A stretch of DNA of 64,000 nucleotides from Myxococcaceae bacterium (GTDB lineage: Bacteria > Myxococcota_A > UBA9160): NCBI GenBank assembly GCA_905339255.1, contig CAJPFO010000058.1, positions 1 through 64,000 on the forward strand, given 5' to 3'. The notes beneath the pieces were generated by a model that made no database searches, was not told the origin of the DNA, and saw only the letters and a program-made list of their open reading frames with translations. Positions 8,590 through 23,989 of the stretch are shown piece by piece. The first letter of the stretch is position 1; every line of letters starts with the position of its first letter. Made by a program: the position numbers and the translations under genes.

Positions 8590-9378
8590 ATGGACGAAGT
8601 CCTGATCGAGATCGATTCGCACGTCGCGACGCTCACGCTGAACCGTCCCGACCGCCTGAACGCGATCACCCCGGCGATGCTCGATCGGCTCTCGGAGCTG
8701 CTGCTGCGGTGCGACGCCGATGGCGACGTACGCGTCATCGTACTGACCGGCGCCGGGCGGGGTTTTTGCGCAGGGCTCGATTTGAAGGACCTCGCGGCCG
8801 GCAAGAACATCGGCTCCGATGCTTCGATGGGGATCGGGCGATTCGATCTCCGGAGCGCACCGCCGATCGTCCTCCACCAGGTCGACAAGCCGACGATCTG
8901 TGCGCTCAACGGAGCAGCCGCCGGATACGGGATGGATCTTGCGCTCGGCTGCGACGTTCGCGTCGCGTCGTCGAGCGCGAAGCTCGCGGCGGCGTTCACG
9001 AAGCGCGGCGTGCTTCCGGAGAGTGGCGGTACCTGGCTCCTTCCGCGACTCGTCGGTTGGGCGAAGGCCTGCGAAATCGCCTTCACGGGGCAGACGCTCG
9101 ACGCGAACGCATGTCTCGCGCTCGGACTCGTGAACCGCGTCGTCGAGGACCCGGAGCTCGCTCGTTCGGTTCGCGACCTCGCAGTCGAGATGGCGTCGAA
9201 CGCCCCGCTCGCCGTCCAGGCCACCAAGAGGATGATGCGGCTCGGCCTCGAGGAGAGCTTCGAGGCGAACGTGCACCACGTCTTCCTGCAGCTCTTGCCG
9301 CTCTTCCGCTCGAAGGATTTCGGTGAAGGAGTTCGCGCCTACCTCGAGCGCCGGCCCCCGAGGTTCGAGGGACGCTGA
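8590..9378 (+). CDS. Enoyl-CoA hydratase/isomerase-family protein
   Basis: A 262-residue crotonase-fold protein. The oxyanion-hole segments are visible: AGRGFCAGLDLKDL near residue 56 and NGAAAGYGMDLALGCD near residue 103. The second catalytic acid (LPESGGTWLLPRLVG) is conserved. At the first Glu position of classical hydratases there is an Asp (GYGMDLA), so dehydration/hydration chemistry is uncertain and an isomerase or other crotonase activity is possible. A GGAGG ribosome site sits just before the ATG. The gene end overlaps the convergent cheB end by 40 bases. Confidence 0.85.
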   Translation: MDEVLIEIDSHVATLTLNRPDRLNAITPAMLDRLSELLLRCDADGDVRVIVLTGAGRGFCAGLDLKDLAAGKNIGSDASMGIGRFDLRSAPPIVLHQVDKPTICALNGAAAGYGMDLALGCDVRVASSSAKLAAAFTKRGVLPESGGTWLLPRLVGWAKACEIAFTGQTLDANACLALGLVNRVVEDPELARSVRDLAVEMASNAPLAVQATKRMMRLGLEESFEANVHHVFLQLLPLFRSKDFGEGVRAYLERRPPRFEGR

Positions 9379-10532
9379 GGGTTCGGACCCGGGCCCCCGA
9401 CCACCGAGAGACGCGGCGGCGCGTCTGCGTCGGACGGCCCTCGCCGTCCATTTCGCCGCACCGACGCAACGATGGCTCCAGGAATCCTCTCGAGCGGCAG
9501 CACCATTGCTGCGGCCCCACGCGCGATCGCTTCACGAGGCATTCCGAACACGACGCAGGTTTCGGCATCCTGCGCGAGCGTCCAGGCGCCGGCTCGTCGC
9601 ATCGCGAGTAGCCCTTCTGCGCCGTCAGCGCCCATGCCGGTCAGCTCGACCCCCACGGCGTGCGGTCCCGCCGCTCTCGCGACCGAGCGGAACAGGACGT
9701 CGACGGACGGTCGATGACCGCCGATTCTCGGCCCTTCGAGGACGCTCACCGAGAAGCGTCCGCCGGTCCGTAGCACGACGACGTGCCGGTCCCCAGGCGC
9801 GACGAGAGCATGTCCGTCGAGAATGGCGTCGCCGTCGGCGGCTTCGCGGACGCGGATCTCCGACACCGAGTCGAGGTGACGAGCGAGCGCACCGGTGAAC
9901 GCGGCCGGCATGTGCTGGGCGATCACGATCCCGGGGCCATCGGCCGGCAGGGCGCGAAGCAGGGTCGTGAGGGCCTCGGGCCCTCCCGTCGAGGCTCCGA
10001 TCGCGACGACGAAGTGGCTTCCGCGCCGAGCGGCGCTCTCGGCGTGCGGTGGTCCGCGCCGGAGGGGAAGCTGCGGCGTCGATTTCCGCTTCGCCACGCG
10101 AGCGAGCGCCGCGGCACGAATCGTCCGCAGCAGGTCTCGGGTCCACTCGGACCGGAGTGCCCCGTCTCGCCAGCGCGGCTTCTCGAGGATCTCGACCGCT
10201 CCGTCGGCGAGCGCCCGGAGTGCGGCTTCGGTTCCGGGCGCGGCCACGGCGGAGCAGACGACGGTCGGGATCGGATGCTCGGCCATGAGGCGCCGCAGGA
10301 ACGAGAGGCCGTCCATCCGAGGCATCTCGAGGTCGAGCAGGATCACGTCCGGCGCCGTCTGCTCGATCTTCGTGGCCGCGATCACCGGATCCGCGGCGAG
10401 CACCACTTCGATCGTCGGATCGGATCCGAGCGCCATCGCGATGAGCCGCCGCGCCACGGCCGAATCGTCGACGACGAGCACGCGCGGGCCGCCGCGTACG
10501 GGCGGCCTCAATCGTCGAGGAGCTTCTTCCAC
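9339..10532 (-). CDS. cheB: Chemotaxis response regulator/protein-glutamate methylesterase CheB
   Basis: A 397-residue two-domain enzyme that demethylates or deamidates receptors. The receiver has Asp67 in VILLDLEMPRMDG and Lys in EILEKPR. The methylesterase has Ser181 (AIGASTGG), His207 (AQHMPAAFTG) and Asp303 (GMGADGAEG). About 40 residues after the catalytic domain are low complexity and unusual. It is the last gene of the chemosensory operon. The GTG at 10532 gives the longest product; a TTG at 10511, overlapping the cheR stop as TTGA, is an alternative start. The C-terminal coding end overlaps the convergent crotonase gene. Confidence 0.95.
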   Translation of the reverse strand: MEEAPRRLRPPVRGGPRVLVVDDSAVARRLIAMALGSDPTIEVVLAADPVIAATKIEQTAPDVILLDLEMPRMDGLSFLRRLMAEHPIPTVVCSAVAAPGTEAALRALADGAVEILEKPRWRDGALRSEWTRDLLRTIRAAALARVAKRKSTPQLPLRRGPPHAESAARRGSHFVVAIGASTGGPEALTTLLRALPADGPGIVIAQHMPAAFTGALARHLDSVSEIRVREAADGDAILDGHALVAPGDRHVVVLRTGGRFSVSVLEGPRIGGHRPSVDVLFRSVARAAGPHAVGVELTGMGADGAEGLLAMRRAGAWTLAQDAETCVVFGMPREAIARGAAAMVLPLERIPGAIVASVRRNGRRGPSDADAPPRLSVVGGPGPNPQRPSNLGGRRSR

Positions 10533-11413
10533 GCGAACACGCTCGGACCGACGCTGCGCAGGGGCTGCTCACGACCCTGGAGTGCCTCGGAGTGACCGAG
10601 GAGGAGAAGCCCCTCCGGGTCGAGGACTCTCAGGAGACGCTGGAGCGCCCCACGCTTGTGCGTTGGCTCGAAGTAGATCAGGACGTTGCGACAGAGCACG
10701 AGATCGAAGATCCCGAGCCTCGGGTCCAGATCGCGAGCGAGATTGAGACGCTCGAAGCGGAGGGTCGCCCGGACCTCCGAGCTGGCGCGCATGCGCCCGG
10801 CCTGACGGCCGATCCCGCGACGCATGAAGCGATGAAGATGGTGGCCGGGGATCTGCACCGCCTTGTCGAGGCTGAACGTCGCGGATCGCGCCTGACGAAG
10901 CACACGGGTCGAGAGATCCGACGCGAGGATCTCGATCTCGAAGCCCTCGCTCCGCGGAAAGTGGGAGAGCAGGCTCATCGCCATCGAGACCGGCTCCTCG
11001 CCGGTCGAGCAGCCCGCGCTCCAGGCCCGGATCCTGCGCGGTCGCCGACCCTTCGAAGCATCCTCTCTCCAGCGCGGGAAGACGCGGGTCTCGAGGAACG
11101 CGAACTGCGACGGCTCCCGGAAGAACGACGTCTCGTTCGTCGTCAGCCGATCGAGCATGACGATCGCCTCGTTCGGATCGTCGATCACGCGCCGGTAGTA
11201 GGCGCTGAACGAGGGCATTTCGAGCTCTCGCAGCCTCTGGTTGAGTCGGCTGGCGAGAAGTGCGCGCTTGGTGTCGGCGAGCTGGATCCCGGCCTCGCGC
11301 TCGACCAGCGACTGGAAGAGCCGGAACTCCGCGTCGAGGAGCCCCGGAACCGGGCGTACCCCGATCGACGCGCTCGCGGAACGTGCGGCTGCCGCGTGTT
11401 GGCGAGCCGTCAT
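10508..11413 (-). CDS. cheR: Chemotaxis protein methyltransferase CheR
   Basis: A 301-residue SAM-dependent methyltransferase that methylates receptor glutamates. The N-terminal helical domain (VEREAGIQL, SRLNQRLRELEM, LTTNETSFFRE) is followed by the SAM-binding core (AWSAGCSTGEEPVS) and LCRNVLIYFEP. The ATG at 11413 overlaps the cheW stop as ATGA, indicating translational coupling, and gives the normal family N terminus. It pairs with CheB to set the methylation state of the MCP encoded in the same operon. Confidence 0.95.
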   Translation of the reverse strand: MTARQHAAAARSASASIGVRPVPGLLDAEFRLFQSLVEREAGIQLADTKRALLASRLNQRLRELEMPSFSAYYRRVIDDPNEAIVMLDRLTTNETSFFREPSQFAFLETRVFPRWREDASKGRRPRRIRAWSAGCSTGEEPVSMAMSLLSHFPRSEGFEIEILASDLSTRVLRQARSATFSLDKAVQIPGHHLHRFMRRGIGRQAGRMRASSEVRATLRFERLNLARDLDPRLGIFDLVLCRNVLIYFEPTHKRGALQRLLRVLDPEGLLLLGHSEALQGREQPLRSVGPSVFAWKKLLDD

Positions 11414-12042
11414 TGCGCCACACGACTCCGTTTCCGACTCCCGCTGCGGCGCGGCAGGGCCACGGACGCTGGAGTCGCAACCTCGGACGCTCCCGGATCG
11501 GGATCGGTCGGAAGCGGATCGGATTCCGCCGGCTGCAAGGCAGGGTCGGACGTCTGCGTCGGGATCGCCTCGAGAGATCCGAAGCCGGTACCTGCGAGCA
11601 CCTCGCGGACGTTCAGGAGCGGGACGAAATCCCCGTCGAGCCGCACCATGCCATCGAGAAGAGCGTGTGGGACGTCGGTTCCGAACCGCGGCGCGGGCTC
11701 GATCTCCTCGGGGCGCACCGAGATCACGTTGTTCACGCCGTCTGCCAGGATGCCGACGACCGTCGCGTCGCCGTCGACCACCACCTCGAGGACGATCACG
11801 CACGAACGACGCCCGGGAGGCTCTTCGGGGAGGCCGAAGCCTCGCGCCAGGCTCACCACGGGAACGGCTCCCCCGCGCAGGTTGAGCAGGCCGAGCACTG
11901 CGTCCGGGGTCCGCGGAAGCTGCGTGATCGTCGTGAACGGAACGATCTCCTTCACGTCGAGGATCCGGATCGCATGCTGCTGGTCGCAGACCCGGAACGT
12001 CAGGACCTGGAACGACTCATCGAGGTCTTCATCGGGTTCCAC
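11410..12042 (-). CDS. cheW: Chemotaxis adaptor CheW with a basic disordered tail
   Basis: The protein has 210 residues. The first ~150 form a CheW domain (FRVCDQQHAIRILDVKEIVP, LGLLNLRGGAVPVVSLARGFG) that couples CheA to receptors. The last ~55 residues are Pro/Asp-rich and then Arg/Ser-rich, longer than usual for CheW and predicted disordered. A strong AAGGAGG lies 6 bases before the GTG at 12042, which supports this start. It is 21 bases downstream of the MCP stop and overlaps the cheR start. Confidence 0.93.
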   Translation of the reverse strand: MEPDEDLDESFQVLTFRVCDQQHAIRILDVKEIVPFTTITQLPRTPDAVLGLLNLRGGAVPVVSLARGFGLPEEPPGRRSCVIVLEVVVDGDATVVGILADGVNNVISVRPEEIEPAPRFGTDVPHALLDGMVRLDGDFVPLLNVREVLAGTGFGSLEAIPTQTSDPALQPAESDPLPTDPDPGASEVATPASVALPRRSGSRKRSRVAQ

Positions 12043-12063: not shown

Positions 12064-13692
12064 TCAGAATTGGACGAAATCGCTCTCGGAATCGACGGCC
12101 TCGCCGTCGCCGGCATCGAGCCCCGACGACCTGCCGCGTTCTGCGGGTCCGCCCGAGGCCCAACCCGACGTCGTTCCGGCGGCGAGCGGCGTCGAACCCG
12201 ACCGGAGGTGCGCGCCCAGCCGGAAGAATGCGATGAGCTGGCGAAGCCGCTGTGCCTGGACGGCCTGTTGTTCGGCCGTGCTCGAAAGCTCTTCGGCCGC
12301 AGAAGCGTTGCGCTGCGTGACCTGATCGACCTGCCCCATCGCCTGACCGATTTGCGCGATCCCCGATGCCTGCTCGCGGGACGCCGCGGCCACCTCCTGG
12401 ACGAGCTCCGCGGTCCGTTGGATCGACGGAACGAGCTCGGCGAGAAGCTCACCCGACCGCGAAGCGACCTGGACGCTCGAAGCGGCCACGTCGCGAATCT
12501 CACGTGCGGCGGATTGACTTCGCTCGGCGAGCTTCCTCACCTCCGAAGCGACGACGGCGAACCCCTTGCCGTGTTCGCCGGCGCGTGCCGCCTCGATCGC
12601 CGCATTGAGCGCGAGCAAGTTGGTCTGGTATGCGATCTCCTCGACGATCGAGATCCGCTCGGCGATCGTCCCCATCGCCCGAATCGTCTCCTCGACCGCC
12701 TTTCCGCTCTCCTCGGCCCCGCTCGCTCCACGGCGGGCCATTTCCTCGAGCTCGAGGCTGTTCGACGCATTCTGCGTGATCGACGCGTTCATCTCCTCGA
12801 GGTTGGAGCGGGTTTCCTCGACCGCGGCCGCATGCTCGCTGGTTCCCTGCGAGAGCCCCTGCGCGGACGCGGCGACCTGATCCGCGGCCCCCGACAATCC
12901 TTCGGCGGCTTCGTGCACCGAACCGATCACCCGTCGCAGCTTCTCCACGAGCCGGCTCATCGCACCGAGCATCGAACCGAGCTCATCGTTCGAGGTGACC
13001 GCCACGTGTGAGGTGAGATCGCCGTCGGCGAGCGCCGTCGCAACGCGCGTCGCTTCTCGAAGCGGTTTGGAGATCGAGGACACGAGGAGGAGCGAGACTC
13101 CGAGGCAGATCCCGAGACCGATCGCGAGGACGGCTCCGACCGTCGCGAGCTGGGCTTTCTCGAGCGCGCGAACGTCGGCGAACGCGCTCTCGGATGCGGC
13201 CTGATCGCGCTTCGTCCGCTGCTCGAGCCGCTTCGAGATCTGGTCGCGCTCGCTGCGCAAGCGCTCGACGATCGGCGAGACCGAGTCGAATCCGGCCGCG
13301 CCGGTGATCCGTCCCTCCATCTGACCGAGGCCTTCGCCGTAGCGCTCGGAAGCCTCACGGAGCCCGGCGAGCTCGTCGATGTCCGCGTTCGGAAGCGTCG
13401 CTGCCTTGTCGAGCAATGCGCCAAAACGTGCCAGGTAGCGACGCGCCTCGACGATCGCGTCGCGATCGCGATTGGCACCGGAACGCTCGGCGGTCGCGTG
13501 CATCTCCCGCGCGACACTCGCCATCTCGAGGCCGACCAAGAACGACGGGTACGATTGTGTCTCGACGGTGTCCGCGGCCGTTTCCTTCCGCCCTTCGTAA
13601 TGAAGTGCGACGACCACGACGACCGCGAACACGGCCGCCATCAGTGCGGGCAACGCCAGCAGTCTCACTCGCAGGCTAAGATTGGAATGCAT
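12064..13692 (-). CDS. Transmembrane methyl-accepting chemotaxis protein with C-terminal tether motif
   Basis: A 542-residue receptor: TM1 at about residues 10-28, a helical periplasmic sensor (about 30-185), TM2 (about 188-210), a HAMP domain ([21 protein letters not shown]) and a signalling hairpin. The tip reads [20 protein letters not shown]. After the signalling domain there is a flexible Gly/Ser linker of about 55 residues ending in DFVQF, which fits the aromatic-x-x-aromatic pentapeptide used to tether CheR/CheB. The ATG at 13692 (M-H-S-N-L) is chosen because TM1 follows at once. It overlaps the cheA end by 17 bases. Ligand unknown. Confidence 0.93.
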
Positions 13693-15406
13693 GGCCGACC
13701 TCCACGGTGTCCGTCGAAACGAGCGCATGGTTGGACTCGGGTCCGAGAAGCTCCGCGTCACCGATGCCTCCGATCGCGCGATCGATGAGAGCGCGGACGT
13801 CGAGAATGAGGGCGATCCGGCCGTCTCCGAGGATCGTTGCGCCGCCGACCTCGGGAACGTTCCGGAGATGTCTCGGAAGGGGTTTGATCACGGTCTGGCG
13901 CTCGCCGAGGAGGCGATCGACCAGGAGGCCGAGTCGGCGCCCGGCATGCTCGACGACCACCACGCTTCCGCGGCTCGCCTCCGAGGAGGGCAGGCCGAGC
14001 ACGCGATCGAGCCGGACGTAGGGGAGCGGGCGGTCGCGGACACTCAAGAGCCCCGTGGCACCGCCGCGCGAATGACGTCCCTCCGTGGGGAGATCGAGGC
14101 ACTCGATCACCGACTCGAGAGGAAGAACGTATACCTGTCGCGCCGTGCCCACCGCGAAGCCCTCGATGATGGCGAGCGTGAGCGGCAGACGGAGCGTGGC
14201 GATCGTCCCCGCGCCGGGACGGCTCCGCAAACGAACCGTTCCACCGACGCTTTCGACGGTGCGGCGTACCGCGTCCATTCCGACGCCTCGGCCCGCGGCA
14301 TGGTCGGCCTCGTCGCGGGTCGAGAATCCCGGGTGGAAGACGAGTTCGAGGAGTTCGTTCGGGCCGAGGGCGGCCGCATCGGCGACGAGGCCGAGCGACG
14401 CGGCCCGCCGGCGAACGGCGTCGAGGTCGACCCCTCCGCCGTCGTCCTCGACCTCGACGACGATCTGGGCACCCTCCTGTCGCGCCGAGAGAACGACTCT
14501 CCCGCTCGCAGGCTTGCCCCGGGCCAGACGGGCCTCGGGCGCTTCGATTCCGTGCGCGAGTGCGTTGCGGATCACGTGGATGAGCGCTTCGCGGAGGTGT
14601 CCGATGACCGTCGTGTCGACCTCGGCGTCCTCGCCGCGGATCTCGAGGTGAGCACGCTTTCCGTGCGTGAGGGCGAGCTCTCGGACGGACCGCGCGTGCT
14701 GCCGGAAGACGGGTCCGAGCGGGACCATCCTCACGCGCATGACCTCCTCCTGGAGGCTCGCGAAGAGGTGGTCCATGGCGCGATGCGCCTCGAGGACCTC
14801 GGAGGAGGGCGCGCTGCGTCCATCGTGGAGCACCTGGTCGAGTCGCCCACGCGCGATCGAAAGCTCTCCTGCGAGGTTCATCAGTCGATCGAGCGTCTCG
14901 ACCCGGATCCGCAGCGTCGGAGCGGCGAGCCGGACCGAGTCTCCGATCGTCGTCGGGTTCGCGTCCGACCCGGTGAAGGCCGGCGCGGCGACACGATCGA
15001 CCGTTCGCTCCGGCCGCGGAGATCCGTGGTCGCCCCGCAGCGCCGCCAGGCATCGCCGGTGATCGTCGGAGAGCTCGTCGCGTCCCTCGAGAGTCGAGTC
15101 GAGGATCTCGCGCAGCGCGTCGACGGCTGCCAGAAGCAGGTTCGATTCGGATTCGCTGGGCCTTCGCTCCGCACGCCGGATCTCGCCGAGGACGTCTTCG
15201 AGGACGTGCGCGAACTCCGTGAGCGCAACGAACCCGAGCGAATCCGCGTCGCCCTTGATCGTGTGGCAGACGCGAAAGATCTCGTTCGTCCGCTCGGGGT
15301 CGAAGTCCCCGTTCTCGATTGCGAGTAGAGCCTCCTCCATCGTGACGAGACCATCGCGGGTCTGCGCCTCGAACGTCGTGAGGACCTGCTCGAGTTCGGC
15401 GTCCAT
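13676..15406 (-). CDS. cheA: Chemotaxis histidine kinase CheA lacking a P2 domain
   Basis: A 576-residue kinase. P1 carries the phosphorylation His48 ([15 protein letters not shown]). A short ~40-residue linker leads straight to the P3 dimerisation helix ([17 protein letters not shown]). The P4 ATPase follows ([32 protein letters not shown]), then the P5 CheW-like domain. No P2 CheY-docking domain fits in the linker, which is a real difference from enteric CheA. Eleven bases separate it from the cheD stop. It probably phosphorylates the two CheY-like proteins and CheB of the same operon. Confidence 0.95.
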
Positions 15407-15417
15407 GGTCTCGGTTC

Positions 15418-15933
15418 CTAGATGAGCTTGACCCAGGCCGTCCCGTCGTCCGGATGGAAGACGAGTTTGCGGCCGCGGTGCCCCCCGACGTCGGCCGCAA
15501 CGACGGCCACGCCGGCCTCGGCGAGCAACGCTCGAGCGGCATCGACATTGCGCCGGGCGAGCGGGTTCACGGATTGGAGCGCAGGGGCGATCGAAGCCCC
15601 GCCGAAAAGCTTCCCCCGGAGCCGCTCCGGCTTCGCTCCGAGCGAGACCGTTCGCTGGATCAACTCCGGCACCGCGAGGTTTCCGAAGCGGAGCGCCGAA
15701 GACCCGAAGCCGAGGCCGCGAGGCAACACGAAATGGCAGAGTCCCCCGACCCCCGCCTCCTCATCCCAGAGGCACGCTGCGACACACGAGCCGAGGATCG
15801 TGACGATCCGGACCTTCGTTCGAGACGTCATGATCTGCCCCGGATGGACGTAGAGCGTCGGCCGATCCGGCTCCTTGCTGGATGCGGATGAGGCCCGCCG
15901 AGCCGCCGAGGTTCTCGACGAAGGAAGACTCAT
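15418..15933 (-). CDS. cheD: Chemoreceptor glutamine deamidase CheD
   Basis: A 171-residue CheD. It contains the catalytic Thr/Cys pair in RIVTILGSCVAACLWDE and the His in GGLCHFVLPRG; the family deamidates receptor glutamines and can bind phospho-CheY. The C-terminal half (LFGGASIAP, GHRGRKLVFHPDDGTAW) also matches. The ATG at 15933 overlaps the stop of the upstream GAF gene as ATGA. The N-terminal ~30 residues before the conserved core are low complexity. Confidence 0.92.
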   Translation of the reverse strand: MSLPSSRTSAARRASSASSKEPDRPTLYVHPGQIMTSRTKVRIVTILGSCVAACLWDEEAGVGGLCHFVLPRGLGFGSSALRFGNLAVPELIQRTVSLGAKPERLRGKLFGGASIAPALQSVNPLARRNVDAARALLAEAGVAVVAADVGGHRGRKLVFHPDDGTAWVKLI

Positions 15934-16682
15934 CTCCTGGGGCGGGCTTCGCACGCCCAGTGTCGTGCGTGCAGGCGCGCCGAATGGAGTGCCGTCGCGG
16001 CCTGTGTCGCGAGGAGATCGAAGATCTCGAAGTCGATCCGTTCGAGCCCGGGCTTTTGCTCGAGAAGCCCGAAGATGGCGATGGCGCCGGTCGCTTCGCC
16101 CTCGATCAGAAGGGGGATGCAGACCCGGGGGCCGCTCGAAGGCTCGTCGTCGAGGCGTCGATCGCCGTCGTCTGCGACGAAGCGCTCACCGGATTCGATC
16201 ACGCTCCGGATCCGATCCTCTGCTGCGTCGATCGCGTTCCCATCGACTCCGAGTGCAGAGAGGACGCGGAAGGAGTCGCCCTCCGCCTCGAGGATCGCGA
16301 ACTCCTCGGAACCAATCAGATTGACCACGATCTCGTGGATCGCACGCACCACCTCGGCCGGCTCGAGCGTTCCATGGAGCCGGTACGCCGAGACGTAGAG
16401 GTTGGCGAGGCTATCGTTCTCCTGCTCGACCGAGAGATAGCGCTCGAACGCGGAAGCGTTTTCCTCGGCAATGTTCGCCGCGTGGAGCTGGAGCGACGAA
16501 GCCCGCTCGAGAGCCGCGCGGGCGGCGCCGAGCTCGAGGGACAGGCGCGTCTTCTCTTCTTCGAGGGATGCGACCGCACCGCGGAGGGTCTCGATCTCCT
16601 GGAGCCGCTCCTCGATGAAGCGGCGCGTGCCCTGGCGGACCCTCCGCACGTAGTCTGCAGGATCGTGGACGTCGCTGGCCAT
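15930..16682 (-). CDS. Coiled-coil GAF-domain protein of the chemosensory operon (paralogue 2)
   Basis: A 250-residue cytoplasmic protein. Residues about 20-95 form a heptad-rich coiled coil (IEERLQEIETLRGAVASLEE). It is followed by YLSVEQENDSLANLYVSAYR and a GAF domain (about 100-245; IVVNLIGSEEFAILEAEGDS, VCIPLLIEGEATGAIAIFG). GAF domains bind small ligands or cofactors or act as dimerisation modules. It is clearly related to the protein at 18560-19378, sharing the 'EQEN-SLA-LYV' junction and INLIG/VNLIG core, so the two arose by duplication. It overlaps cheD. Ligand unknown. Confidence 0.85.
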   Translation of the reverse strand: MASDVHDPADYVRRVRQGTRRFIEERLQEIETLRGAVASLEEEKTRLSLELGAARAALERASSLQLHAANIAEENASAFERYLSVEQENDSLANLYVSAYRLHGTLEPAEVVRAIHEIVVNLIGSEEFAILEAEGDSFRVLSALGVDGNAIDAAEDRIRSVIESGERFVADDGDRRLDDEPSSGPRVCIPLLIEGEATGAIAIFGLLEQKPGLERIDFEIFDLLATQAATALHSARLHARHWACEARPRR

Positions 16683-16695
16683 GAAAACCTCGTGG

Positions 16696-17085
16696 CTACT
16701 CGATCAGACTTCGGATCTTGGCGATGAGCTCGACGCCGTTGAGCGGCTTGGTCACGTAATCGCTGCAGCCGCTCGCGAACCCCGTCTCGACGTGCTCTGC
16801 ATCCCCTCGAGTCGTCACCAGGATGATCGGGATCTCGTGGGTCGCGGCCTCGTCGCGGAGCGCCTGACATGCGTCGAATCCACCCATTTCCGGCATCACC
16901 ACGTCGAGGAGGATGAGGTCGGGTCGAGCCTCGCGCGCGACCGAAACGGCCTCTCGCCCGTTTCGCGCGTAGAGGAGCTCGAAGCTCCCGGCACGCTGGA
17001 GGATCATCCGCTCGGTCATCAGCGCGACCTCGGAGTCATCCACGAGCAGGATTCGCTTGCGACGGCGGCGAGCGGGTTCGGGCAT
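16696..17085 (-). CDS. CheY-like single-domain response regulator (first of two)
   Basis: A 129-residue receiver with a basic N-terminal extension (PARRRRKR). The phospho-acceptor Asp61 lies in DLILLDVVMPEMGG. The acidic pair DD, the Thr in IILVTTRG and the Lys in SDYVTKPLNG are all present, so it should be phosphorylatable. No output domain. The ATG at 17085 follows the upstream stop by 7 bases. It is a likely CheA target; with the second CheY-like gene it could act as output plus phosphate sink. Confidence 0.92.
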   Translation of the reverse strand: MPEPARRRRKRILLVDDSEVALMTERMILQRAGSFELLYARNGREAVSVAREARPDLILLDVVMPEMGGFDACQALRDEAATHEIPIILVTTRGDAEHVETGFASGCSDYVTKPLNGVELIAKIRSLIE

Positions 17086-17092
17086 TCCAGGT

Positions 17093-17395
17093 TCAGCGCC
17101 CGAGTCTCTGGAAGACCGCGTCCGCACCGTCGGGGCCCGCCGAATCGCGCAGGCGCCCGAGCGCCGCACCGACGATGGCGCATGCCGCGTCCGCCTCGGC
17201 GACGCCTCGCGCCTTGAGCTCCTTCGGGAGGATCTGCTTCACCACGATCCCCATTTGAGAAGCCGTGACGGTCTTCGGATCGAGCCCCGACTTCTTGAGC
17301 GCGATCCGAACGGTTCCGTTCGCGGCGAGGTGGTCGAAGCCCGTCGCGCGAGCGAGGGCCTCCGTCACGCATTCGAATGCAGCAGCGTCCGCCAT
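17093..17395 (-). CDS. Small cytoplasmic protein of unknown function in the che operon
   Basis: A 100-residue protein I cannot assign to a family. It is predicted helical and soluble, with the central stretch GTVRIALKKSGLDPKTVTA, then MGIVVKQILPKELKARGV, then ADAACAIVGAALGRL. There is no membrane segment and no cysteine-based site. The ATG at 17395 is two bases after the stop of the seven-helix membrane gene and 7 bases separate its stop from the next start, so it is clearly a member of the chemosensory operon. An adaptor between the membrane protein and the receivers is one possibility, by position only. Confidence 0.8.
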   Translation of the reverse strand: MADAAAFECVTEALARATGFDHLAANGTVRIALKKSGLDPKTVTASQMGIVVKQILPKELKARGVAEADAACAIVGAALGRLRDSAGPDGADAVFQRLGR

Positions 17396-17397
17396 GG

Positions 17398-18159
17398 TCA
17401 GGCCTCCACCGTCGCCGGGCGCCGAGCACCGGCGACCCACGCCAGGTACGACTGCGGCGGCATGAAGATCAGGAACAGGAGCAGGCTCTGGAGCAGCCCG
17501 TTCATCGACGTCACCGTCACCGTCATCGGGTTCTGTGCGGCGCCGCCGGCCGTCGAGACGACGGTCACGTTCACCAGCGTCGCGGCCGAAGCAACGATCC
17601 CTGCGATCGCCCAGAGCAGGAACCGGTTCGCCGTGATCGGGTCACCGATCCCGAGAGCGAAGCGCCGCCTCATCATCCGGTAGTAGCGGAGGCCCTCTCC
17701 ACCCATCCATGCGTATCCGAGGCCGAGGACGAGCATGTTCGTCAGGCTGAACGAAAAGCTCCGCCGCATCATGTCGGCGCGGTCGACTCCGTACCACGCC
17801 CACAGGAGCCCAGCGAGATCGACGGCGATCACGACGCAGCCGGCGATCGCGAGGAGGCGCGCCCAGAGAGCCCCGGGACGGAAGACGAGGGCGGTGAACA
17901 CGAAGAACCCGCCGATTCCGAAGGTGATGCACAGGTTCCCGAAGTGGTGCAGGAACGTGGCGAGAAGCAAGTGCGTTTCGAAGAGTCTTCCCCCCGCGAC
18001 GACCATCGGAAATCCGATGCCGCACGCGGAGAAGTAGACCATTCCGAGCAGCCGCTCCGGGGTCTTCCCGGTCTCGATCGAGAGCCGGATCAAGCGGAGC
18101 CCGACCACGATGGCCGTGAGCGAGAAGAGCGAGACACAGACGAGAGAGAGGATCGACAT
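17398..18159 (-). CDS. Seven-helix integral membrane protein embedded in the che operon
   Basis: A 253-residue protein of unknown family. Seven hydrophobic segments are visible at about residues 3-24, 38-58, 63-90, 98-120, 134-152, 177-202 and 213-240, joined by short loops with Arg-rich cytoplasmic turns (MMRRRFALG). Helix 3 has a His-His pair (TFLHHFGNL). Helix 7 has no Lys, which argues against a rhodopsin. It lies between two CheY-like genes with 1-2 base gaps, so it should be made with the kinase complex. A signal-sensing or output role at the inner membrane is inference. Confidence 0.85.
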   Translation of the reverse strand: MSILSLVCVSLFSLTAIVVGLRLIRLSIETGKTPERLLGMVYFSACGIGFPMVVAGGRLFETHLLLATFLHHFGNLCITFGIGGFFVFTALVFRPGALWARLLAIAGCVVIAVDLAGLLWAWYGVDRADMMRRSFSFSLTNMLVLGLGYAWMGGEGLRYYRMMRRRFALGIGDPITANRFLLWAIAGIVASAATLVNVTVVSTAGGAAQNPMTVTVTSMNGLLQSLLLFLIFMPPQSYLAWVAGARRPATVEA

Positions 18160-18160
18160 T

Positions 18161-18538
18161 TCAGTTCACCTTCAGCAATGCGTTCACGACGCGGAGGACC
18201 TGGTTGGGTTGTACGGGCTTCGTCACGTAGTCGTCGGCACCGAGCTGGATCGCGCGGTCGCGGTCGGCACTCGCGCCCTCGGTGGTGACGACGACGATCG
18301 GAAGCCCCTGGAAATCGCGGTTCTTGCGGACGAGTTCGATGAGCGTGAAGCCGTCCATGATCGGCATGTTGATGTCGACGAGCGCGAGATCGAAGGAGTC
18401 GGCCGAGAGCTTCTTGAGGGCGTCCATGCCGTCGGTCGCTTCGACGAGCTCGAAGGTCCGCTGGCGTCTGAGCGCCATCGAGAGCAACAGCCGCATCGTC
18501 GGACTGTCGTCGACGACGAGGATTCGGAGTTTTTGCAT
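18161..18538 (-). CDS. CheY-like single-domain response regulator (second of two)
   Basis: A 125-residue receiver. It has the acidic pair in VVDDSPTMR, phospho-acceptor Asp55 (LALVDINMPIMDG), Thr-Thr in VVVTTEGAS and Lys in DDYVTKPVQP, so it is intact. No output domain. It is one base upstream of the seven-helix membrane gene and 21 bases downstream of a GAF gene. Its sequence differs enough from the receiver at 16696-17085 that the two probably have different partners. Confidence 0.93.
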   Translation of the reverse strand: MQKLRILVVDDSPTMRLLLSMALRRQRTFELVEATDGMDALKKLSADSFDLALVDINMPIMDGFTLIELVRKNRDFQGLPIVVVTTEGASADRDRAIQLGADDYVTKPVQPNQVLRVVNALLKVN

Positions 18539-18559: not shown

Positions 18560-19378
18560 TCATTTCGTCAGGAGCTGAAGGAGCCCCTGCATCGTGTTCC
18601 GCTTGCGCTCGGACTGGGCATAGAGCCGTGCAGAGAAGATCGCGGTGGCTGCGTGACCCGCGAGCAGATTGAAGAGCTCGTGATCGAGCGGCGTGAAGCA
18701 ATCCTTCTGCTGCAGCAGGTTGTAGATCGCGATGGCGCCGAGGGGCCGGTCCTCGATTCGAAGAGGGATGCAGACGATCGGAGCCGACGGGTCCTCCGAG
18801 GCGGTGGCGTCGCGACACGTCGCGCCGCGAGCCAGCGCCGCGCCGCCGAGGATCCCCTGGCCGAGCGGGATTCGGACGAGCCCTTCGGCCGGTTCGCCCT
18901 CCGAAGCGACCGGCTCGAGAATTCCGGTCTTGTCGTCGACGAGGTAGACCACGAATCGTTCGGCACCGATCAGGTTGATGACGATCTCGACGACGATCCG
19001 GAGCACCTCTTCGAGGTCGAGGGTCGAATGGAGCTGGAAGCTCGCGACGTAGAGGCTCGCGAGGCTGTTGTTCTCCTGTTCGACCTCGACCTGCCTGCGT
19101 GCGAATTCCTCGTTCTCGTGTTCGAGCTCCTCGAGACGCGAGAGCGTTTCCTTCCGTTCCCCTTCGAGCCCTTCGATCCGATGGAGCAGATCGCGCCGGT
19201 GGCGTTCCCAATCGGCCGGGTCGCGCGCGGCGAGTCGCGTCTGCTGTTGCATCTGGAGCAGGCGGCGGCGGAGATGGGCGTTCTCGTGGACGAGCTCGCG
19301 GGTGAGCTCGGCACCCTTCGTGAAGAGGGTGAGAAACTCCTCCGCCCTCGTCTGGAGCGGGCGCTCGGGATCACTCAT
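18560..19378 (-). CDS. Coiled-coil GAF-domain protein of the chemosensory operon (paralogue 1)
   Basis: A 272-residue cytoplasmic protein. A long coiled coil (about residues 15-105; ELEHENEEFARRQVEVEQEN) leads to a GAF domain (about 110-262; IVINLIGAERFVVYLVDDK, IPLGQGILGGAA, VCIPLRIEDRPLGAIAIYN). The segment GQGILGGAALARG resembles ligand-accessible GAF loops. It is a paralogue of the protein at 15930-16682. The ATG at 19378 overlaps the upstream stop as ATGA. Likely a soluble sensor feeding the Che complex; the ligand is unknown. Confidence 0.85.
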   Translation of the reverse strand: MSDPERPLQTRAEEFLTLFTKGAELTRELVHENAHLRRRLLQMQQQTRLAARDPADWERHRRDLLHRIEGLEGERKETLSRLEELEHENEEFARRQVEVEQENNSLASLYVASFQLHSTLDLEEVLRIVVEIVINLIGAERFVVYLVDDKTGILEPVASEGEPAEGLVRIPLGQGILGGAALARGATCRDATASEDPSAPIVCIPLRIEDRPLGAIAIYNLLQQKDCFTPLDHELFNLLAGHAATAIFSARLYAQSERKRNTMQGLLQLLTK

Positions 19379-20073
19379 CGAGGATCCGTCCCACGGCGCC
19401 GCGCAGTGATCCGTTCCGCCACGGCGCAGCGGACCGCATCGGAGACGAAATCGCGTTGCGTCGTCGCGACCTCGGGGACGCGGCGACGAAGGGCCTCGCG
19501 CCCCCGATCGAGGTCGGCGCGGATCGCGGACATCACCTCCGCCTCGGATCGGGCGCGGTCGAGGAGGGCGCCGTGGTCCATGAGCAGATCCGACGCGAAG
19601 ACGCGGGCCAGCCGCTCGGCCGTTCGGATGGCGGGATCGATCGCCGCTTGCGCCGGGAGGGGAGCCGAGGATGGCAGCGCGGTGCAGGTCGGGATTCCCA
19701 GACGTTCGAGCGCGTCGCCGAGCCCTTCGGGGAGCGAGGATCGGTCGAGAGAGATCTCGGCGCCGTAGAGGGACTCGGCGGGGCGACGATAGCGATCGGG
19801 ACGATGGGCGGCCGTCACGAGGATCGTGCGGATCGATCGAAGAGCGGGCTCGCGCGCGATGCACGTCAGGATCTCGAACCCGTAGAGCCCGGCAAGAGCG
19901 GCGTCGACGACGGCCACTCGAGGTCGACTCGAGCGGATCTCGCGGAGGGCCTCGTGGCCGTCGTGGGCGAGTAGCGCGGCGAGTCCGTGATCGCCGAGCC
20001 AGCGCCCGCAAGTCCGCGCGACATCGGGGTCGGGCAGGGCCACCAGGACGAGCGGGGTCGAAGGGCCGTTCAT
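19375..20073 (-). CDS. Degenerate receiver protein with C-terminal helical domain
   Basis: A 232-residue protein. Residues 6-120 have receiver-like layout, with the acceptor Asp57 kept (VAVVDAALAG) and the Thr in ILVTAAH. The first acidic pair is altered (ALPDPD) and the conserved Lys is missing (AEISLDRSS). Residues about 150-232 form a helical region (ERLARVFASDLLM, then DLDRGREALRRRVPEV) like the C-terminal extension of some delta-proteobacterial response regulators. Phosphorylation is doubtful. It lies 90 bases downstream of the PATAN gene and overlaps the GAF gene. Confidence 0.8.
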   Translation of the reverse strand: MNGPSTPLVLVALPDPDVARTCGRWLGDHGLAALLAHDGHEALREIRSSRPRVAVVDAALAGLYGFEILTCIAREPALRSIRTILVTAAHRPDRYRRPAESLYGAEISLDRSSLPEGLGDALERLGIPTCTALPSSAPLPAQAAIDPAIRTAERLARVFASDLLMDHGALLDRARSEAEVMSAIRADLDRGREALRRRVPEVATTQRDFVSDAVRCAVAERITARRRGTDPR

Positions 20074-20163: not shown

Positions 20164-21948
20164 TCACTCCGTTGCAGCTCGACCGTGAACCGGAAGTTCT
20201 TCGACGGGAGCGACGCCTTCGCGCTCCATCAAGAACTCGGCCTCGTAGACCAGGATCTCGAGAGCGGTGGTGTCGCCGATCCGATCGTGGGACGGGTGGC
20301 GGTCTCCGTAGAGGATCGCGAGCACGCGGCCCTTGCTGTGGATCGGGGCGAGGTACGCCTCGGAAGGGCGGACTCCGCCGAGCGCGCGGAGGAGGTCGTC
20401 GTCACTCGCATCGCTCGGCGCCGCCTTGATGGGCGCATCGCGGTCGAGAACCTGCCGGAACAGTGCCGGTCCGCGGAGTGGAATCCGGATCCTGCGGAGC
20501 GCGGAATCCGACGGACCGCCGGCCGCCTCCATTCCGAGTTGGGCGAGGCCGACGACCTCTTCGCCGCGGAGCTGGAAGAGCGCGACGCGGGAGAACAGGG
20601 ACGCTGCGAAGCGGAGCAGGTGATCGAGGACGATCGGACGCGACGCCGGATCGTGCAGCAGCGCAGTCGTCCGACGGAGCCTCTCGAGGCCGCCACTCGG
20701 GAGTTGCGCGGCGATGGCCTGGAGGCTCGTCGCCTTCGAAGCGCGGGCGCTCGCCGCCCGGATGCTCCCGACCAGGGTGCGCGTCTCGTCGTCATTCCCG
20801 ACGACGTGCCGGTCGGCTCCGGGGATCCGTTGCGGTCGCGGCAAGCGGTCGGCGACGGGTGCAAGGGTCGAGAGCGTGTCGTCGTCCGGATCATCGGCGA
20901 AGAGCAGGATGACGATCCGTGGGCACAGAGAGGAGAGGCGCCGAACGACTTCGGAGACCCCTCCGCGCTGGATCGTCGGATCGATCGGCATGCGCTCGTA
21001 GAGGAGGACGACCGGAACCTCTCCTCGCGAAAGATACTGGCGGATGCGGGTCATCCCGAGCTCGAGCCGCTGGAAGATGTGCACGCGCTCGAACTCCGAT
21101 CCGAGCGTGGTCTTCACCCATTCGAGGACCGAGAGCTCGGGATCGAGGACGACGATCGGAGGGATCGCGCCGACGGCGGCCAACGGATGGTGCGTCGGCA
21201 GCGGGGTCACCCAGGTGAGCGTGGGATCGTCGGCTTCAGCCTCCGATCCGAGATCGGGAGCTTCTTCCGTCGCGTCGAGGTCGAGGTTCGCATCGTCGAG
21301 TGAGTCGAGAGGGGGAGCGGGCGCGAGAGCATTCTCGACGCCATCGAGGTCGGCGAACGACGCGTCGAGATCGGCGTCTTCGGCCCCGGCATCCGGCGCG
21401 AGCGGGTCTTCGGCGCCTCGGCCTCGAGCGGAGGAGCCGACGGGAGCGGAGCGGCTTCGCTCGTCCGCAGCTCGGGCGCCTTCCATCGCCAGGTACTGTG
21501 CATTGAGCGGAGTCGCGAGGAGGAGACTCGGCTCGAAGTCCGCCTCGGGGGCTTCGTGGACGATGAAGCTGAACTCCCCGGCACGCCATGCGAAGAGCGA
21601 AACGATCGTCGACTCCGCGTCGCGGCGGCGAAGCTCCTCGAGCGTTGCAGGGTCGAGTCCATTGCCCCGCTCGATCGGCAGGCCCTCGACCGGTTGCTCC
21701 GGGCGCGCGGCGCTCCCGACGATCTCGTCGAGATCGCGTGCCGAGACCATTTCAGCCTGCAGTGCGAGTTCTGCGAGATTGGCTGCGCCGAGCGCACGGT
21801 GGACGCCATGGATCTGGCCGTCACGAAGTACGACTCGCGCCTCGTCGCCGGCGAGACGGAGGGTGAGAACGCCGGTCTTTCGCGAGAGGCCGATGATCTG
21901 GAGGATGTCCTCGAGCGCGAGATCCTCGAGGTTGCCGGTCAGACTCAT
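20164..21948 (-). CDS. PATAN/DUF4388 - pseudo-receiver - GAF-like regulator, first gene of the che operon
   Basis: A 594-residue protein. The N-terminal PATAN (DUF4388) domain covers about residues 1-165 (SLTGNLEDLALEDILQIIG, GVLTLRL, VVLRDGQIHGV). A strongly acidic, low-complexity linker follows (about 175-240). A receiver-like domain (about 250-370) has Tyr where the acceptor Asp should be (VVLLYERMP). The C terminus is GAF-like (about 410-575). PATAN domains join CheY domains in cyanobacterial phototaxis regulators that act on pilus motors. The ATG at 21948 gives the canonical PATAN start. As the most upstream gene it may be the output of this system; that is inference. Confidence 0.85.
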   Translation of the reverse strand: MSLTGNLEDLALEDILQIIGLSRKTGVLTLRLAGDEARVVLRDGQIHGVHRALGAANLAELALQAEMVSARDLDEIVGSAARPEQPVEGLPIERGNGLDPATLEELRRRDAESTIVSLFAWRAGEFSFIVHEAPEADFEPSLLLATPLNAQYLAMEGARAADERSRSAPVGSSARGRGAEDPLAPDAGAEDADLDASFADLDGVENALAPAPPLDSLDDANLDLDATEEAPDLGSEAEADDPTLTWVTPLPTHHPLAAVGAIPPIVVLDPELSVLEWVKTTLGSEFERVHIFQRLELGMTRIRQYLSRGEVPVVLLYERMPIDPTIQRGGVSEVVRRLSSLCPRIVILLFADDPDDDTLSTLAPVADRLPRPQRIPGADRHVVGNDDETRTLVGSIRAASARASKATSLQAIAAQLPSGGLERLRRTTALLHDPASRPIVLDHLLRFAASLFSRVALFQLRGEEVVGLAQLGMEAAGGPSDSALRRIRIPLRGPALFRQVLDRDAPIKAAPSDASDDDLLRALGGVRPSEAYLAPIHSKGRVLAILYGDRHPSHDRIGDTTALEILVYEAEFLMEREGVAPVEELPVHGRAATE

Positions 21949-23212: not shown

Positions 23213-23989
23213 ATGGTGAGCATCTATGCATCGGGACTCTTTGCCGCGGCCGTACTGGTCGGCGTCGTCTGCATGCTCGAGGCCGGGCGCGGCCTCCGTC
23301 GTCGCCAGGAAGCGCGCCGCGACGACGCCATCGGGAGCGGCTTCGGAGCGGTCGAGGGTGCCGTCTTCGCCTTGATGGGGCTCCTCGTCGCCTTCACCTT
23401 CTCGGGGGCCGCCTCGCGTTTCGATGCGAGGCGCTCGCTCGTCGTCGAGGAGGCAAACGACATCGGAACGGCGTACCTGCGCGTCGATCTCGTCCCCGCC
23501 ACCTCGCAGCCCCGGATCCGGGAGCTGTTTCGTCGCTACGTGGACGTGCGCCTCGAGACCTACGCACACTTCACGAATCGAGAAGAGGCGCTCGCGATCC
23601 ATGCGAAGGCCACGGCGCTGCAGCGCGATCTCTGGGATGGCGCGGTGGTGGCGACCTCGGGTGCCGACGCAGGGCCGGCGCGCATGCTCCTGCTTCCCGC
23701 CGTGAACGAAATGTTCGACATCGCGAACACGCGGATCGCCGCAACGTACATGCACCCGCCCGCAGTGATCTTTGCGCTTCTCGGGACGCTCGCCCTCGCG
23801 TCTGCACTCTTGGCCGGCTACGGAATGGCTTCGGAAGCCGGACGGAGCTGGCTTCATTCGATCGGCTTCGCGCTCGCGCTCGCCGTGAGCGTGTACGTGA
23901 TCCTCGACCTCGAGTACGCGCGCGTCGGCTTCATCCGGGTCGACGATTTCGATCGCTTCCTTCGCGAGGTCCGAGCGTCGATGGGTTGA
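23213..23989 (+). CDS. DUF4239-type (bestrophin-like) membrane protein
   Basis: A 258-residue protein. There are hydrophobic segments near residues 5-22 and 43-60, a long soluble middle (about 75-170) and two further segments near 180-200 and 213-230. The fragment GFGAVEGAVFALMGLLVAFTFSGAASRFDARR with VEEANDIGTAYLR is characteristic of DUF4239/bestrophin-like proteins. Its role is unknown; an ion channel or membrane scaffold has been suggested for the family fold. GGAGGAGG precedes the ATG at 23213, fixing the start. Its 3' end overlaps the convergent methyltransferase gene by 59 bases. Confidence 0.8.
   Translation: MVSIYASGLFAAAVLVGVVCMLEAGRGLRRRQEARRDDAIGSGFGAVEGAVFALMGLLVAFTFSGAASRFDARRSLVVEEANDIGTAYLRVDLVPATSQPRIRELFRRYVDVRLETYAHFTNREEALAIHAKATALQRDLWDGAVVATSGADAGPARMLLLPAVNEMFDIANTRIAATYMHPPAVIFALLGTLALASALLAGYGMASEAGRSWLHSIGFALALAVSVYVILDLEYARVGFIRVDDFDRFLREVRASMG

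Follow-up and report, generated by a model that had tools for sequence, protein, structure and literature searches.

A complete che operon of a Myxococcaceae bacterium was found to contain, between two CheY-like genes, a pair of genes whose products represent two real protein families, namely a seven-helix membrane protein (MP) and a small soluble protein (SP). In our assessment the chances are about even that MP stands for an undescribed, receptor-like seven-transmembrane family with SP as its dedicated helical partner, and that the two together provide a chemosensory input. Since the pair was kept almost exactly with one chemosensory system in the order, it is probably a new type of sensor feeding that system.

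In the window, i.e. the whole 64,000-nucleotide stretch of DNA analyzed here, the operon lies on the minus strand in the order REC3, GAF1, REC2, MP, SP, REC1, GAF2, CheD, CheA, MCP, CheW, CheR and CheB. The genes of MP (17398..18159, 253 aa) and SP (17093..17395, 100 aa) both start with ATG, are separated by 2 bp, gave positive codon-usage scores, and are each preceded by a Shine-Dalgarno-like stretch (GAAGG before MP and GGTGGAGG before SP). REC2 (18161..18538) ends 1 bp upstream of MP, and 7 bp lie between SP and the start of REC1 downstream (16696..17085); both were matched by Pfam as CheY-like receivers and have the DD...D...T...K residues intact. An earlier note on this DNA had described two genes 2 bases apart with intact CheY-like flanks, and the coordinates, the Pfam matches and the kept receiver residues bore this out. 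The remaining members, assigned by their domains, are the receiver-domain protein REC3 (19375..20073), the GAF protein GAF1 (18560..19378), which marks the che cluster in the order, its paralogue GAF2 (15930..16682; 42% over about 173 residues), CheD (15418..15831; Pfam), CheA (13676..15406) with Hpt, dimerisation, HATPase and CheW domains, MCP (12064..13692) with HAMP and signalling domains, CheW (11410..12042), CheR (10508..11413), and CheB (9339..10481), the start of which is uncertain. The MP-SP module is probably co-transcribed with these genes. Elsewhere in the order, che clusters likewise have an orthologue of REC2 (55-61% identity) after GAF1. Upstream of REC3 the window encodes a DUF4388 protein (20164-21948), a type of protein that most relatives likewise encode close to the che cluster, and a bestrophin-like membrane protein (23213-23989, plus strand; Pfam E 7.5e-15) is encoded divergently from the che region.

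Neither MP nor SP matched any entry of Pfam, NCBIfam, PADLOC or PHROGs, in good agreement with the earlier statement that neither is a recognised Che component, and we found no published description of such a pair in the open-access literature. Their juxtaposition is nevertheless not a chance event, because dozens of homologues of both were found adjoining each other in other genomes. As both families are absent from the searched domain libraries, the genes left without annotation can run into the dozens in a single genome.

The AlphaFold2 model of MP confidently predicted seven long helices followed by a short eighth one (mean pLDDT 93.7, pTM 0.88), and the earlier count of seven helices was thus upheld. 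In a Foldseek search with this model, GPCRs and microbial rhodopsins came out as the top PDB matches; the probability was 1.00, but the matches were weak (E of 0.03 at best, TM of about 0.5-0.58, rmsd of 5-9 A). This is a predicted likeness in overall architecture and no proof of kinship, and seven-helix bundles easily look alike. Lysine and arginine averaged 2.3, 2.3, 4.4 and 3.0 per protein family-wide in loops 1-2, 3-4 and 5-6 and the C-terminus, respectively, versus 0.03-0.4 in the other loops, and this positive-inside charge, combined with the AlphaFold2 helices, indicated an N-out/C-in topology. Sequence entropy was lower in the inner halves of the helices than in the outer halves (2.17 vs 3.04 bits, p = 3e-12), i.e., the inner side is conserved and the outer side variable. 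The conserved cytoplasmic motifs are GxR22, PE35, VFR94, W151xxxE155, R166xxxGL, NRFLLW178-183 and FxPPxxY232-238; helix 3 has a conserved arginine at its inner end, FxPPxxY precedes the short eighth helix, and no catalytic-looking set of conserved polar residues was seen in the outer half. The MPs are stand-alone proteins of about 240-260 aa, and no natural fusion to SP occurred among the MPs and SPs examined. A PDB search with the family profile gave no chain with an E value of 10 or lower, and a relationship to HisKA_7TM or 7TMR-DISM_7TM was rejected by the hhalign probabilities (6.6% and 2.2%, respectively).

SP was predicted to be all-helical, with a small helical domain and a low-confidence C-terminal tail, the sequence of which is conserved. 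The family shares the motifs RGTVRxALKxxGL, LPxELxxRGV and, at the C-terminus, VFxRLGG. A fold search with the SP model gave no match, and the best hit of the SP profile in the PDB, a phosphatase at E 0.016, was at chance level and dismissed as not credible.

MP homologues were detected in 54 of the 91 genomes of the class, with up to 29 copies in one of them, and their presence coincided closely with that of SP (both in 50 genomes, MP only in 4, SP only in 4, neither in 33; p = 5e-16). Outside the class, single-copy MPs occurred in nine further genomes of the phylum (5.7-13.4 Mb). In a scan of genome_contigs, 63 loci encoded an SP relative, and these belong to metagenome assemblies labelled as Deltaproteobacteria, Myxococcota, Proteobacteria or unnamed bacterium. 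Among 90 distinct pairs, 64 were arranged as MP-SP and 26 as SP-MP, a few of these labels being assigned by nearest neighbour in tandem arrays; most gaps ranged from about -4 to +6 bp, and in all seven distant genomes of the phylum that were read, SP and MP overlapped by 4 bp. Once tandem arrays were excluded, the MP tree implied a minimum of five changes of gene order. The neighbours vary from locus to locus and are mostly unrelated metabolic genes. MPs and SPs without an adjacent partner were also common, and since several genomes possess 8-12 MPs and one SP (e.g., 8:1, 10:1, 11:1 and 12:1), one SP is probably able to serve many MPs in trans. Covariation between MP and SP across the 90 pairs exceeded that of shuffled pairings (z 11) and was not concentrated at cytoplasmic positions; shared descent alone gives such an excess, and we therefore rejected it as a sign of contact. 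A toxin-antitoxin or defence role was likewise rejected, as either protein may be encoded without the other, neither was found in the collections of plasmids and viruses, and PADLOC gave no match. Nor did they appear to be phage cargo, as neither a PHROGs match nor a relative of MP or SP on viral contigs was found.

Across the 80 genomes of the order, the presence of MP followed that of GAF1 almost exactly (both in 47, MP only in 5, GAF1 only in 2, neither in 26; p = 7e-14). The presence sets for these comparisons were compiled by hand from tool tables. The association held upon stratification by family (p = 2e-10), which controls only partially for kinship, and it persisted among genomes of at least 4 Mb (38, 5, 1 and 18 in the same sequence). 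CheA was present in all 52 MP genomes of the order. Flagellin (20/32/5/23, p = 0.08) and HisKA_7TM (51/1/22/6), compared in the same way, tracked MP far less than GAF1 did. A genome of the same genus, G001, has neither MP, SP nor GAF1, and genomes of f12, another family of the class outside the order, have MP and lack GAF1. Nevertheless, the tie could reflect a common lifestyle rather than a direct link, and MP-positive genomes were somewhat larger. The core che cluster (CheA, CheW, receiver, CheR, CheB, GAF1 and REC2; L161-L178) was also found in many genomes without detectable flagellin, and its role there may be in motility of a non-flagellar kind or in some other output.

Neither MP nor SP was found inside the GAF1 regions of 18 other genomes, and the arrangement in the window is thus unusual. 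The window MP grouped with the MPs of f12 with tree support of 100/95; the resolution of the SP tree was too poor for placing the window SP. The latter has N26 where 89 of the 90 pairs have R, and A15 where 83 of the 90 have E. Having lost these two family-conserved residues, the window SP may have diverged or be failing, and the changes may reflect either decay or an adjustment to its place in the che operon.

Several known systems resemble the pair in part. Anabaena sensory rhodopsin (ASR) and its 14 kDa soluble partner ASRT are encoded in one operon, and the partner is proposed, in the account given in PMC3267196, to be activated by the seven-helix protein. MP and SP likewise combine a seven-helix protein and a small soluble partner in one operon, and ASR/ASRT is functionally the nearest known arrangement, although MP lacks the defining rhodopsin features. 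In particular, no helix-7 column contained more than 5% lysine among 90 MP family members, i.e., the conserved retinal lysine is missing. ASRT is beta-rich, whereas SP is predicted to be all-helical and had no PDB match, and the MP family is multi-copy, its presence tracking that of a che system. Archaeal sensory rhodopsins I and II are seven-helix receptors that pass their signal into CheA/CheY through HtrI and HtrII, which are membrane MCP-type proteins; in contrast, SP is a soluble protein of 100 aa without an MCP domain, and MP shows no rhodopsin sequence match. The 7TMR-DISM_7TM and HisKA_7TM domains, the latter also present in the window genome, also provide bacterial signalling proteins with a seven-helix sensor, but they are usually joined to a kinase, cyclase or PAS domain in one protein, whereas MP stands alone with no cytoplasmic signalling domain fused. 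With eukaryotic GPCRs, MP shares as a mere resemblance the N-out/C-in topology, the inner-end arginine of helix 3 and a PxxY motif followed by a short helix 8; it shows no sequence similarity to them and no fold match below E 0.001, and there is no G protein. Like an MCP, MP is possibly an input to CheA, but neither MP nor SP possesses a HAMP or MCP signalling domain.

On these grounds, we propose that the variable outer half of MP would sense something, that a conformational change would run via the conserved cytoplasmic face of MP to SP, and that SP would pass the signal on to the chemosensory (CheA/CheY) system; in the window genome, this module has come to lie within the che operon itself. 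The data show the gene pair, the two families with their linkage and co-occurrence, the pattern of conservation, the topology based on charge and the phyletic tie to the che cluster, and the seven-helix fold is confidently predicted; ligand sensing, contact between MP and SP, a signal running as input rather than output, and any contact with a Che protein are what we infer. The main rival holds that MP and SP are a receptor and partner with an output of their own, such as gene regulation, a second messenger or the state of lipids and the envelope, which would have only a lifestyle, e.g. surface motility or a rich signalling repertoire, in common with the che cluster, the site in the window being a single chance relocation. 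The existence of nearly all pairs as autonomous bicistrons among unrelated genes, the finding of only one in about 90 pairs in a che operon, and the somewhat larger size of MP-positive genomes all fit this explanation; however, the che tie is as tight as the tie to SP and persists within families and at 4 Mb or more, and flagellin and HisKA_7TM, taken as controls for lifestyle and signalling, track MP far less. We regard an independent output as possible but less likely than not.

An unlikely explanation is that MP is a transporter, a channel or a lipid-handling protein, with SP as a regulatory or assembly subunit and the copies dedicated to different substrates. Transporters do exist among seven-helix bundles, and genes of lipid or CoA metabolism adjoin many of the loci; against this, MP presence tracks the che cluster, conservation is limited to the cytoplasmic side with no catalytic-looking polar set in the outer half, and MP matched no transporter or enzyme family in the libraries searched, whereas the earlier note had named clear homology of that kind as what would refute its proposal. 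The same note had left open whether the pair is a membrane input or the output target of the CheYs. Its link to the Che system was supported by the position in the operon and by the way in which MP follows the che cluster across the order, and input was favoured over output by the high copy number of MP in single genomes and by the contrast between its variable outer and conserved inner half. A specific partnership with the CheYs is spoken against by the other pairs, nearly all of which are autonomous bicistrons flanked by unrelated genes, and by the 18 other che-cluster regions, which lack them. A membrane effector switched by phospho-CheY via SP seems quite improbable, even though two intact CheY genes flank the pair in one operon, the che cluster co-occurs with it, and the lack of detected flagellin in most MP genomes calls for a non-flagellar output. 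A genome can encode as many as 29 diverged MPs with a variable outer half, a better fit to many inputs than to one output, and other pairs as a rule have no adjoining CheY.

Bacterial chemosensory input is thought to come mainly from MCP-type receptors. If the chemosensory-input reading is true, a large non-rhodopsin seven-helix family with a soluble adaptor would constitute a second input class, and a bacterial counterpart to receptor-adaptor signalling. The still broader proposal, that Myxococcota and their relatives possess multi-copy GPCR-like seven-helix receptors which feed the chemosensory system through a common small helical adaptor as a second class beside MCPs, is put forward only tentatively. 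The coupling is directly testable, as a culturable relative with one copy exists.

Individual loci provided further observations. The genome richest in copies, G071 (L063-L115, L282-L289), encodes 29 MPs and 23 SPs, mostly in scattered bicistrons, and the distances among its MPs correlated with those among its SPs (r 0.33, against a mean of 0 and a maximum of 0.40 upon shuffling), which would follow from joint duplication of the pairs. Tandem arrays of two or three MP-SP pairs lie directly 3' of a conserved gene for a 619-aa transporter-like protein at L109 (three pairs), L116 and L114. Elsewhere, SP or the pair directly adjoins a hybrid histidine kinase at four loci and a sigma-54 activator at one, and at L122 (6058-10300) a 1070-aa PAS hybrid histidine kinase is encoded 3 bp upstream of MP-SP, in the sole other clear signalling operon with a pair. 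Finally, a conserved spot next to a gene for a 297-aa HtpX-like membrane protein (protease; L064, L080, L081, L073 and L083) is occupied by SP alone or by SP-MP depending on the genome, which suggests that MP was lost and SP retained there.
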